A DNA stretch of 64,000 bases from Ruegeria halocynthiae (GTDB lineage Bacteria; Pseudomonadota; Alphaproteobacteria; Rhodobacterales; Rhodobacteraceae), in the NCBI RefSeq assembly GCF_000743705.1, contig NZ_JQEZ01000001.1:302070-366069 (forward strand), written 5' to 3'. Shown here piece by piece: positions 57,338 through 64,000 of the stretch (position 1 is the stretch's first letter; every line of letters starts with the position of its first letter). Position numbers and translations under genes: made by a program. The notes under the pieces were generated by a model. That model did not search any database and had not been told where the DNA came from. It saw only the letters and a program-made list of their open reading frames with translations.

Positions 57338-58480
57338 TCAGCCCAACACCTGCCGAATGGCCGTCAGAAAAATCCCGCTGCCCACGGGTATCAACGCATC
57401 CGGAAAGTCATAATCGGGGTTGTGTAGCTGCGGTTGATCCCGCCCTGCCCCCAACCAGAACATCGCCGTTTTCGCGCCTTTGGCGAATTGCCCGAAGTCC
57501 TCGGAAAACTTTTGTGGGTACTGCGTAAGGGTACAAGAAACGCCACGCTGGGCACAGGTGGTTGCGACTGTTTCAACCGCTTCGCCATGATTGACACATG
57601 CTTCGAAAACATCGTCATACGTGATCTCGGCGGTCAACCCTGTCGCTTTCGCGGCCTGCATCACCAAAGCCTCGGCCGCCAGGATCAGACGTTGCATGCA
57701 CGCGTCTGAAACCGTGCGCAAAGTCACCCACAGTTCGGCCCGGCCCGGAGTTACACCAAATGTCCGCTCGCCCAGATTGGCATGTGTCACTGTGGTCAGC
57801 GCGAATTCAGCGTCCAAATCACCGCCCCGACCCAACTGTGCCAATTGCGGTATCAGCGTGGACAGCGCCATCGCCGGGGAAACCCCATCCTCGGGGGCCG
57901 CCGCGTGTGAGGTCCTGCCGGTCAGGATCACCCTCATCCCGCGCGAGGCGCAATTGGCCGCCGCTTCGCAGACCTCAACCGTGCCCAGTTCCAGCCCCGG
58001 CAGGTTGTGCAGTGAAAACACGTAATCCGGCGCAATCTGTTCAAACCGCGGGTCCGCGCGAAAGGCGGTTGCGCCCTGCCCGGTTTCTTCGGCTGACTGA
58101 AAGATCAGAACCACCCGACCCTTCAAAGTGCGATTGCGCCCAAGCTCTTCGGCGACGCCCAGCACCATGGCCATATGCCCGTCGTGGCCACACAGATGAC
58201 CGTGCCCGGTGACCCGCGATACATAGGGTACATCCGTGATTTCCTGGATCGGCAGCCCGTCCAGTTCGCAACGAACAGCTACGGTCGGTCCGGCCTGCCC
58301 GCTGTCATATACAGCCGCAACGCCATGCCCCCCAAGCCCGGTCAGCACCTGATCTGCACCGAATTCTTGCAACTGCTCTGCCATACGGGCCGCAGTTTCG
58401 CGTTCCTGCCCCGAAAGTTCGGGGGTCTGGTGCAACTCGTGGCGCAGCTTGGTCAGCCGCGCCAGCGTTTCCGGCGTCAC
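57338..58480 (-). CDS. M20-family amidohydrolase (N-acyl amino acid / hippurate hydrolase type)
   Basis: A 380-residue zinc or manganese peptidase-like enzyme. Metal ligands are in [17 protein letters not shown] and the SAEETGQGA block (catalytic Glu pair); the dimerisation domain is in the middle ([15 protein letters not shown]). It removes N-acyl groups from amino acids or related amides; the substrate is not predictable. The GTG start overlaps the lipA stop (GTGA). Confidence 0.92.
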
Positions 58481-59427
58481 CCCTGCTCCAACTTCTTTTG
58501 ACGCGCATCACGCAACCGGGCGAAATCGTCACCCGCATGATAAGACGACCGGGTCAGCGGCGTCGCAGATACCATAAGGAACCCTTTGCCAAAGGCCGCC
58601 TTTTCGTAGGATGCGAATTCCTCAGGCGTGACGAACCGATCCACGCCATGATGTTTGGGGGTCGGTTGCAGATATTGCCCGATGGTCAAAAAGTCGATGT
58701 CGGCGGCGCGCATATCGTCCATGACCTGCCGGACCTGCTGTGCATCCTCACCCAGACCGACCATGATACCGGACTTGGTAAAGATCGACGGGTCCAACTC
58801 CTTGACGCGCTGCAGCAGACGCAGCGAGAGGAAGTAGCGCGCGCCAGGGCGGACCTCGGGGTACAGGCCGGGAACGGTTTCCAGATTGTGATTGAAGACG
58901 TCCGGCTTGGCCTCGACCACGACCTCAAGCACCGAAGGATCGCATTTCAGGAAATCCGGCGTCAGAATCTCAATCGTAGTCTTGGGCGACCGGTGCCGGA
59001 CCGCGCGAATGGTCTGCGCAAAATGCTCGGCCCCGCCGTCGCCAAGATCGTCACGGTCGACCGACGTGATAACAACGTGGTTCAGCCCCAGCTTTTGCAC
59101 TGCATGGGCAACACGACCGGGTTCAAAGGTATCCAGCATATCAGGACGGCCAGTGGCGATGTTGCAAAAGGTGCAACCGCGCGTACAGATGTCCCCCATG
59201 ATCATCATCGTGGCGTGACCCTGGCTCCAGCATTCGCCGACATTCGGGCACCCGGCCTCTTCGCATACTGTGACCAGATTGTTGTCACGCATGATCCGGC
59301 GCGTATCGGCATATCCCTTGCCGCCGGGGGCTTTGACGCGAATCCAGCTTGGCTTTTTTGGCTGCGCATTGTCGGGACGATGCGCTTTTTCGGGGTGACG
59401 TTGTTCGGGGATCTTCAGATCACGCAC
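58477..59427 (-). CDS. lipA: Lipoyl synthase
   Basis: A 316-residue radical SAM enzyme inserting two sulfurs into octanoyl-lipoyl domains. The auxiliary cluster is bound by Cys55, Cys60 and Cys66 ([12 protein letters not shown]) and the radical SAM cluster by Cys81, Cys85 and Cys88 (CTRGCTFC). The conserved Ser of the C-terminus is in [11 protein letters not shown]. No lipB is adjacent. Confidence 0.97.
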
Positions 59428-61271: not shown

Positions 61272-62393
61272 CTACCCGATCAGGCGATTGCGCTCTGACT
61301 GGGTCTCATAGTGCCGATTGAGCCTTTGCAATGCGATCCGCAGTACGATCTTTCCGGAACGGGCCGACCACCCCATGCGTTTTTCCGCAAGTTCCAGACC
61401 TTCAAGATAGCAGCAACACCGCAGGGCTACATCACTTAACCCCGGACCAAGATCCGACAGCGCGTGGGCCACCCGGTCACGCGCGTCAGAAGACCCCCGC
61501 CCCCCGTGCGAGTCGCTGTCAAAACTTCCGCGCCCTCCGGCGGTCAGAAAATGATCCCAGTTTTGCGCAACCTGAGGACCGATCTGCGCCAGTTCAAAAT
61601 CCTCGCGCAAGCGTTCACCTGCAGCCACAAGCGTTTCATCCAGAAATGGCTTTCCGTCCCGGTCCCGTCTGCGCGCCAATGCAATCAGCGGGCTTTCTGC
61701 AACGCTGTATCGGATGCGTCTTGGCCGTTCGGCTTTTTCCCCGGTCCCGCCCACCCGGTCCATTTGAGGGTGAAACGGCGTTTGCGCTTCGGCCATGCCA
61801 AACTCACTGCGCGCCCGCGCCTTGTTTTCCGCCTCGGCGACCAGACGGCTAAGGGCCGTACGTCCCGACGTCGAAATTCGATAACGGGAAATGCGCCCCG
61901 GATTGTCGCAGGAAATCCAGTCTTTCAGGGCCAGTGCCTGTGCGATCCCGCACTCGACCACAGCCGTTCGCGTCGCCCCGCTGTCGCCTGTGTCGCGCAC
62001 CACCACGGCCTTGTCCATTTCCTCGGCGACGGCCAGAACCGACCCGGTTTCGCATAGCCGGCGCAAAATCCGTAACGCTTCGCGGTTGAATTCCTCATCT
62101 TTCGCGGCGGCCGCCTCTTCGGGGGATGTGGACACAGCCCCCCTGACCGAAGCCTCGGTCCGATCCCCAGCTTCGGCAAAATGCGTTTCGGCCAACGATT
62201 GAAGCGCAGCATCCACCAACGGATCATCCCTGCGCATTTCGATACGTCGAATTTGTCTGAGTATGGTTGAAGCATGGCACCCTGCGGATCGCGCTATATC
62301 GCGGATCGACTGGCCGGTTTCCGTGTGGGCCAGATATCGTTGCGCCCCCTCAGGTACCCAAGCCGGAATGGTGAAAGCCATGTTATTTTCCAT
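61272..62393 (-). CDS. DUF6456 helix-turn-helix protein, GafA-like
   Basis: A 373-residue protein. The N-terminal HTH (SIRDIARSAGCHASTILRQI, then RRIEMRRDD) resembles the DNA-binding domain of DnaA. A middle region looks winged-helix-like (RTAVVECGIAQALALKDW), and the conserved C-terminal DUF6456 block includes LEGLELAEKRMGWSARSG. From memory, GafA, the direct activator of the Rhodobacter gene transfer agent, has this layout; assignment here is inference. I chose the ATG at 62393; an ATG four codons later is possible. It is divergent from a DUF6477 gene. Confidence 0.82.
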   Translation of the reverse strand: MENNMAFTIPAWVPEGAQRYLAHTETGQSIRDIARSAGCHASTILRQIRRIEMRRDDPLVDAALQSLAETHFAEAGDRTEASVRGAVSTSPEEAAAAKDEEFNREALRILRRLCETGSVLAVAEEMDKAVVVRDTGDSGATRTAVVECGIAQALALKDWISCDNPGRISRYRISTSGRTALSRLVAEAENKARARSEFGMAEAQTPFHPQMDRVGGTGEKAERPRRIRYSVAESPLIALARRRDRDGKPFLDETLVAAGERLREDFELAQIGPQVAQNWDHFLTAGGRGSFDSDSHGGRGSSDARDRVAHALSDLGPGLSDVALRCCCYLEGLELAEKRMGWSARSGKIVLRIALQRLNRHYETQSERNRLIG

Positions 62394-62478
62394 AGTTAGT
62401 TGCCCTCGTCGACAAAACAATCTGCTATCAATCGCCCCCGGTGAATTTGTTAACCAATTCTAACTAGAGTCGCTTTCG

Positions 62479-62493
62479 TTACTCGTTCGTTAA
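62479..62493. promoter_or_regulatory. Candidate CtrA box between the DUF6456 and DUF6477 genes
   Basis: TTAC-TCGTTCG-TTAA fits the CtrA consensus TTAA-N7-TTAA with one mismatch and is followed by C as in the extended TTAAC form. A further TTAACC lies at 62450. The region between the two genes is markedly AT-rich. Confidence 0.45.
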
Positions 62494-62633
62494 CCCGCAG
62501 AGACAAGGACCAGATTTGATTCAAAAACATAAACAGTCATGAAGTCATAGTTCGGCGAGAACTAAATTGAGGCAACACCCGCCTAGGTTGTGTGACAAAC
62601 AGGGTCCTTCCACTCGGAAAAGAGGACCCGAAT

Positions 62634-62933
62634 ATGCAAGACCTGATGACCATGATCAAAACCCTACGCCGTCCCCGCCTGCTGGTGCGGGCTGCAAAGC
62701 TTGGCGCACAGGATTACGATCGGGACAGGCATTTGCAGCGGACACTGGGGTATGGTTCCCTGCCCGGCACGGGCACGGCGCTGGTCCGGCTGATGGAAAT
62801 GGAAAAAGAAGTTAACGCGCAAAGGCTGGCCGAGGATGCCACCTATTCGCTGGTCCGGCATCTGGACCTGCTGATTGCACTGTTGGGCGAGGCGCAGCTG
62901 TTCCAGGCCAGCCGCGCCCCGCTAAGTCCATGA
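62634..62933 (+). CDS. DUF6477 protein
   Basis: A 99-residue, mostly helical protein: MQDLMTMIKTLRRPRLLVRA at the N-terminus and YSLVRHLDLLIALLGEAQLF near the C-terminus match DUF6477. GAGGA lies 7 nt before the ATG at 62634. It is divergent from the DUF6456 gene and ends directly against the MttB stop. Function unknown. Confidence 0.85.
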   Translation: MQDLMTMIKTLRRPRLLVRAAKLGAQDYDRDRHLQRTLGYGSLPGTGTALVRLMEMEKEVNAQRLAEDATYSLVRHLDLLIALLGEAQLFQASRAPLSP

Positions 62934-64000
62934 TCAGACGAACGCATCCGGCATCGAGTCTTTCTTTGCAGCCACGTATTCATTCAGCGCGGCGTTAATC
63001 TCGGGGTCGAGTTGCGGCTGCTGGTAATTCGCCAGCAGATACTCGACCCGCGAGGATGCAAGCGTCCGCGTGTCACGCGCGCCTTCGTCTTCCCAGGTCT
63101 CATACGGCTTGTAATCCAGCAGATCGGATTTCCAGAAGGCCTCTTTGAAATGCGCCTGGGTATGTGCGCAGCCCAGATAGTGACCGCCCGGACCAACCTC
63201 GCGGATTGCATCCATGGCCTGGGCGCTTTCATCATAGGTCACACCTTTGGCCAACCCGTGCAGTACCCCAAGCTGATCCGCGTCCATGACGAATTTCTCA
63301 AAGTCCGCAACAAGGCCGCCTTCGAGCCATCCACAAGCGTGCAGCATGAAGTTCACACCCGACATCAGCCCCATGTTCAACGAGTTCGCGGTCTCATAAG
63401 CCGCCTGTGCATCAGGCAATTTCGAGCCACAGAACGACCCGGACGAGCGGAACGGCAGGTTCAATCGCCGCGCCAACTGACCAGCACCATAGGTAACGTG
63501 CGAAGCCTCGGGCGTACCGAAAGTTGGCGCACCCGAATTCATGTCGATAGAGGTCACCATCGCACCGAAAATCGCAGGGGCACCGGGGCGAACAAGCTGG
63601 CTATAGGCGACACCGGCCAGAACTTCGGCCAGTACCTGCGTCAGTGTTCCCGCCACGGAAACCGGCGCCATCGCACCGCCAACGATAAAGGGCGAAATGA
63701 TGCAGGCCTGATTGTTCTTTGCATAGACTTCCAGCGAGCCCATCATCACATCGTCGAAAGTCATCGGCGAGTTGATGTTGGTCAGCGAGGTCATGACCGT
63801 GTTTTCCTGAACGAACTCTTTGCCGAACAGAATCTCGCACATTTCGACCGAATCCTGCGCGCGGCTGGGATCAGTGACCGACCCCATGAACGGCTTGTCC
63901 GACAAGGTCATATGCGCCATCAGCATGTCCAGGTGGCGCTTGTTCACTGGTACATCCGTCGGTTCGCAAACGGTGCCGCCGGAATGATGCAACCACTTGG
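62934..64000 (-). CDS. MttB-family (trimethylamine methyltransferase-like) protein, partial
   Basis: The frame runs off the right edge; about 355 C-terminal residues are present of a family usually near 500. Motifs are LDMLMAHMTLSDKPFMGSV, PFRSSGSFCGSKLPDAQ and MLHACGWLEGGLVADFEKF. No in-frame TAG is seen in this part, so no pyrrolysine can be assigned here. Non-pyrrolysine relatives such as MtgB demethylate glycine betaine or other quaternary amines, passing the methyl group to a corrinoid protein. The substrate is unknown. Confidence 0.92.
   Translation of the reverse strand, partial: KWLHHSGGTVCEPTDVPVNKRHLDMLMAHMTLSDKPFMGSVTDPSRAQDSVEMCEILFGKEFVQENTVMTSLTNINSPMTFDDVMMGSLEVYAKNNQACIISPFIVGGAMAPVSVAGTLTQVLAEVLAGVAYSQLVRPGAPAIFGAMVTSIDMNSGAPTFGTPEASHVTYGAGQLARRLNLPFRSSGSFCGSKLPDAQAAYETANSLNMGLMSGVNFMLHACGWLEGGLVADFEKFVMDADQLGVLHGLAKGVTYDESAQAMDAIREVGPGGHYLGCAHTQAHFKEAFWKSDLLDYKPYETWEDEGARDTRTLASSRVEYLLANYQQPQLDPEINAALNEYVAAKKDSMPDAFV

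Follow-up and report, generated by a model that had tools for sequence, protein, structure and literature searches.

Gene pair and divergent promoter region

Near one end of the 64-kb stretch of DNA analysed here (the window), two divergent genes raise the question of whether they form the switch of a gene transfer agent (GTA) whose structural genes lie elsewhere in the genome. The first (61272–62393, minus strand), taken here as the orthologue of gafA, encodes a protein of 373 aa with a putative N-terminal helix-turn-helix (HTH) and a C-terminal DUF6456 domain, the latter recognised by Pfam at residues 228–363 (E 2.1e-61; 206 bits, against a cut-off of 26.3). The second (62634–62933, plus strand) encodes 99 aa, has the position and orientation of rcc01866, and belongs to DUF6477 (Pfam E 4.5e-36), a family named in no paper of the searched literature. 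Both proteins had been predicted from the sequence, with these lengths and families, and the profile matches bear this out. The gafA start is placed at the ATG at 62393; a TTG further upstream would give 382 aa. In the N-terminal part, generic HTH families match below threshold (HTH_38, residues 26–50, 23 bits, cut-off 27) and no DnaA family is among the Pfam matches, the label ‘DnaA-like’ for this HTH being one used in the literature. GafA has no relative among PDB sequences up to E 1, and an Rfam scan of the last 6 kb of the window gave no match.

The divergent promoter region between the two genes (62394–62633) is 240 bp long and, at 45% G+C, distinctly AT-rich relative to the window (58%). 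It contains a TTAC-N7-TTAA site at 62479–62493, the sole occurrence in the whole window with both strands considered, so that the original prediction of an AT-rich gap with such a site holds. On the minus strand, this is a CtrA-type box, TTAAC-N6-GTAAC (62478–62493), the form given for the CtrA site of the R. capsulatus gafA promoter (Fogg 2019, PMC6363796), and it would supply the CtrA site expected of a GafA gene. Its proximal end lies 84 bp from the gafA ATG, about 15 bp beyond the 65–71 described as usual in the same paper (PMC6363796). Such a box is present no more than 160 bp upstream of gafA in 39 of 50 genes, where mononucleotide shuffles lead to an expectation of 0.65, and is therefore more frequent than chance would allow; 38 of the 39 have the form TTAA-N7-GTAA in the orientation of gafA. 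(Of 51 gafA loci given, 50 were counted, L077 having no N-terminal match.)

Genomic neighborhood and the remote GTA cluster

The order of genes is lipA, peroxiredoxin gene, LysR gene, gafA, the divergent DUF6477 gene, mttB and guaA. The lipA gene (lipoyl synthase; 58477–59427, minus strand) is recognised by its Radical_SAM and LIAS_N domains, the mttB-family methyltransferase gene (62934–63998, minus strand; Pfam MTTB E 1.2e-170) is cut by the window end, and guaA follows beyond it (L073:7193-8752). Published descriptions have gafA flanked by lipA and the gene for GMP synthase (PMC6363796), with rcc01866 divergent from it (PMC9638019), and the neighborhood seen here agrees with them in both respects, as the proposed synteny check on the DUF6477 neighbour had asked. 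Place and orientation suggest that rcc01866 is itself a DUF6477 family member. Relative to R. capsulatus, known to us by description, the LysR and peroxiredoxin genes here separate gafA from lipA, and mttB separates the DUF6477 gene from guaA.

A GTA cluster was also to be sought elsewhere in the genome, and there is one. The single GTA_TIM gene (E 1.5e-154) is on contig 2, in a cluster where Pfam recognises terminase, portal, prohead protease, capsid, head-completion, tail-tube, baseplate-hub and Rcc01698-type proteins (nine proteins scanned, one without a match). A profile search finds just one DUF6456 gene in the source genome. This leaves no rival for the role of GafA and, an RcGTA-like cluster being present, makes the gene described here the single best candidate. 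With the CtrA-type box and the lipA/guaA flanks, this supports the GafA-like activator reading proposed at the outset. The locus is very probably that of gafA, in what is likely a species of Ruegeria, its mechanism being drawn mostly from R. capsulatus. As a type it is not new, and hardly so for the genus, as over-expression of the gafA of a Ruegeria is described by Fogg 2019 to have raised GTA production (PMC6363796).

Proposed mechanism and known systems

In R. capsulatus, CtrA is described as turning on gafA, while GafA autoregulates, binds to the promoters of GTA genes, makes contact with the omega subunit of RNA polymerase, and is required for GTA production (PMC6363796, PMC9638019); at the RcGTA promoter, Fogg reports no CtrA binding (PMC6363796), and PMC9765227 is cited among the literature that supports the gafA reading. 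From these reports we infer CtrA control, promoter binding and polymerase contact for the present organism. CtrA would bind the box upstream of gafA and start its transcription, after which GafA would raise its own expression and bind the promoter of the structural cluster (contig 2 here) as well as other GTA promoters. By bringing RNA polymerase to these promoters it would cause particles to be made, and lysis to occur, in a few cells. The divergent DUF6477 gene, as the putative counterpart of rcc01866, would be needed late, in particle maturation or lysis.

The closest likeness, again by description, is to R. capsulatus gafA (rcc01865) and rcc01866, shared features being a full-length DUF6456 protein, the divergent small gene, TTAAC-N6-GTAAC, the lipA/guaA flanks and a remote GTA cluster. 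Dinoroseobacter shibae, a member of another genus, is described as having the same pair (Dshi_1584/Dshi_1585), with predicted CtrA sites on both and control by quorum sensing (PMC6473078). In Caulobacter crescentus, GafZ is reported to be a homologue of the GafA C-terminal part (PMC11150451), and the DUF6456 profile matches the Caulobacter control genome. There, however, GafY and GafZ are two genes, which RogA represses and which depend on IHF (PMC11150451), whereas here there is one protein and a CtrA box.

Upstream of TerL, the pattern GTTGC-N5-7-GTTGC-N5-11-TTGA occurs in all seven full Ruegeria clusters, in seven of eight Ruegeria fusion loci (see below) and in none of 83 other loci (98 loci in all). 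In the source genome a slightly wider GTTGC pattern has five matches (control, none), but only one is recognisably before a GTA gene, so the pattern yields no regulon. Upstream of TerS (L072:15962-15990, minus strand), a pair of GTTGC repeats, spaced by about 11 bp, stands beside a TTGAC -35 element, a candidate GafA or polymerase element.

Conservation across the order and genomes without a full GTA

Among 195 genomes of the order (completeness at least 95%), DUF6456 is present in all 195, DUF6477 in 192 (absent in G005, G056 and G162), GTA_TIM in 186 and the GTA capsid in 175, or 173 if the weak matches in G078 and G110 are set aside. A GTA cluster is thus found both in this organism and, judged by its capsid, in most of the relatives surveyed. 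Twenty genomes have neither the capsid nor a full-strength GTA_TIM, eight of them without any GTA_TIM match and twelve with a weak one, a count that omits G091, which has the capsid but no GTA_TIM, as well as G123 and G137, for which the reverse holds. A DUF6456 match is found in every one of the 20 and a DUF6477 match in 18, so that two of the three cases of DUF6477 absence fall among them (Fisher p 0.028), an association in favour of the gafA reading. Unexpectedly, and as a point against that reading, gafA and DUF6477 outlast the GTA particle genes in these relatives, which have often lost the latter by a deletion with identical end points.

As a separate observation, in G055 (L093), where GTA genes are present, gafA is apparently frame-shifted within DUF6456 and the capsid match has an internal TAG.

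A recurrent TerL::g15 fusion

In 12 of the 20 genomes without a full GTA, the cluster has collapsed to one gene, TerL(1-185)::g15(~666-1319). With the source genome's own terminase as query (searched against the 20 genomes and G091, G123, G137 and G055), the TerL match reaches only to residue ~186 in these 12, and in ten of them the frame continues to 831–893 codons. The junction W-x-D-E-x-G-C is identical in 11 of the 12, and the twelfth, G102, breaks at the same TerL point, out of frame. Of the other eight, G168, G005 and G001 (L107, L108 and L109) carry different deletions, G010 has a TerL match only and four show no TerL. In each of these three deletions, and in a further non-identical one in G091 (L195), the right end is inside g15.

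A degenerate DNA pattern for the junction finds 64 loci in 84,980 species genomes. Judged by their titles, these are mostly Rhodobacterales, together with Chelativorans, Mesorhizobium and Phyllobacterium, and include isolates and metagenome-assembled genomes (MAGs). The pattern detects one junction only, so that the frequency of other junctions is shown by the sample of 195 genomes and not by the 64, and eight of the 64 loci are from the same genomes as eight of the 12. Within the source genus the pattern is present in 10 of 54 species, with none for the reversed-pattern control, and it has no match in IMG/VR. Overall, the fusion loci (L095-L106 and L111-L174; for example L115:2089-4593, minus strand) have TerL joined in frame to g15, with gafA mostly kept. 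In the four Ruegeria fusion loci displayed, the fused gene occupies the place of the GTA cluster and its flanks match, and seven aligned Ruegeria fusion loci retain the promoter block.

Fusions and full clusters are interleaved: by parsimony, the state changes 24 times on a tree of 106 rows and 21 times on one of 98. In Ruegeria (eight fusions, six full clusters) clustering is no better than with shuffled labels, which gave a value as low in 405 of 500 (g15) and 176 of 500 (TerL) cases, and a single clade of Ruegeria fusions is rejected (AU p 5e-99 for g15, 0.0018 for TerL).

In four full clusters of genus g8 (L189, L190, L191 and L199), g15 has an insertion of ~140–190 codons, in two sequence types, near residue 650 and shortly before 666.

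State of the fused gene

Closed frames of at least 780 codons are found in 40 of the 64 loci (one of them, L125, with an apparent shift over the first 60 residues). Another 20 run off the fetched sequence (L118 and L126 of these look broken) and three are closed but short (L123, L154 and L157), with L162 outside the frame assessment. Mean column conservation is similar in fusions and full clusters (TerL 0.760 vs 0.767; g15 0.624 vs 0.648). Residues invariant in full clusters are kept in at least 95% of fusions at 46 of 49 positions in TerL but only 61 of 90 in g15; the fusion set covers more taxa. Pairwise dN/dS of fusions is mostly 0.04–0.3, and up to 0.47, compared to 0.03–0.15 for the full pairs computed. 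Walker A is invariant in 39 aligned intact fusions, while the acidic pair of Walker B is prescribed by the search pattern and so is uninformative. Decay is seen in the small terminase, where the matched region contains an in-frame stop in 7 of the 40 fusion loci that have a match and in none of 34 full clusters (75 fusion loci, duplicates included, and 41 full clusters were searched).

In an AlphaFold model of the fused protein, pLDDT falls below 50 at residues 47–86, 184–225 and 255–293. The confident parts are blocks from residue 531 on (mostly >90) and residues 91–160 (~80–91). The best Foldseek matches of the model are phage and GTA baseplate proteins, i.e. they reflect the g15 part.

Retention of gafA and alternative roles of the locus

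The DUF6477 gene is open in all 12 fusion genomes, gafA in 11, and the box is present in nine; the exception for gafA is G002, where it has an internal stop and the fused gene is also interrupted. In the other eight genomes without a full GTA, DUF6477 is absent in two and broken in two, gafA is truncated in one (G162) and the box is found in two. Comparing the 12 with the eight, Fisher's test gives p 0.014 for DUF6477. For the box, with G162 (where it could not be sought) counted as being without, p is 0.065. Both tests are post hoc, small and ignore kinship. For comparison, the box is present in 28 of the 31 other gafA loci examined. The lysis-type GH108 family, which we take to be linked to the GTA endolysin, is kept in 11 of 12 fusion genomes and in all eight others, and DUF2793, presumably linked to the head spike, in 10 of 12 and six of eight. 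Most of these peripheral genes thus persist in either group, as would be expected if the losses were recent, and equally if the genes were still in use.

Two other views of the pair can be set against that of a GTA activator. GafA and its partner could serve an extra purpose, such as lysis, stress response or DNA uptake, which, and not the GTA, would explain the near-universality of the pair in the order, and would suit the presence of DUF6456 even in the 20 genomes without a full GTA, the open gafA in 18 of these and the lysis-type GH108 family in 19. Retention may merely reflect recent losses, however, and the locus decays in the eight genomes without the fusion, so we regard an extra purpose as unlikely. 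Far less probable still is that a phage left behind a pair of prophage regulators. A tblastn search with GafA does match three phage records, weakly: a DUF6456-like stretch in a 103-kb freshwater phage (MW462191.1:76100-76534) is 40% identical to residues 226–370, and two RDJL Phi 1 records match residues 14–181 at 28%. The DUF6477 protein, on the other hand, has no match in the phage records searched, DUF6456 is universal in the sampled genomes, and none of the five neighbours scanned is a phage gene; the setting between lipA and guaA largely refutes a prophage origin.

Explaining the fixed junction

The deleted span runs from the codon of the Walker B glutamate (TerL residue 184) to that of a glutamate at residue 669 of g15, within the TIM-barrel domain. 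What remains is a fused gene of ~830–845 codons, which in Ruegeria is still under the GTA promoter, and a remote gafA system that is mostly intact. It is quite possible, if somewhat short of probable, that the order loses its GTA clusters repeatedly by this one precise in-frame collapse, the fused product being selected or else an ancient null allele segregating alongside the full cluster in many species. Reading GTA loss and pseudogenisation as cheating is already published (PMC10883770). No mention of a TerL::g15 fusion was found in the searched literature, which did not extend to many subscription papers, and the word ‘fusion’ was not found in PMC10883770, PMC7947584 and PMC11841831.

Several explanations for the constant junction find no support. 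As to a homology-driven deletion hot spot, exact matches at the shared codon span 1–7 nt in 39 full clusters and score no better than those at most or many other registers of the two genes; the best two rank within the top 15%. Against horizontal spread of one allele, Ruegeria fusions do not form one clade and, up to the junction, are about as near to full clusters as to each other. No signal of foreign DNA is seen near the junction, in windows of seven codons that have low power; over g15 670–676, divergence is higher for fusions (0.159) than among full clusters (0.087). A folded hybrid domain is unsupported since the predicted structure has pLDDT below 50 across the junction. The fused product may nevertheless be under selection, for instance if it blocks GTA production or lysis in cheaters with GafA on, consistent with the invariant Walker A and low dN/dS, although the low model confidence at the junction and the best structural matches, which reflect the g15 part, speak against it. 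It may instead be an old null allele that exists beside the full cluster within species and is evened out by recombination, or the junction may stem from a mutational process of unrecognised kind. A database artefact may also be considered, but it sits poorly with isolates and MAGs from many projects, a one-contig genome (G002) and broken copies.

Significance

The locus itself is a further well-supported instance of an activator already known, the likely commander of this genome's GTA cluster. The by-product could matter more, namely a switch that is kept in relatives without particles, and a loss that takes a standard form. How GTAs persist despite the death of the producing cells is a long-standing question, and a recurrent, defined form of loss, found by the junction pattern in 10 of 54 species of the genus, would allow producers to be measured against non-producers in nature and in culture. 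If the fusion is indeed selected, or a segregating null allele, GTA cheating would be a genetically defined and testable state.
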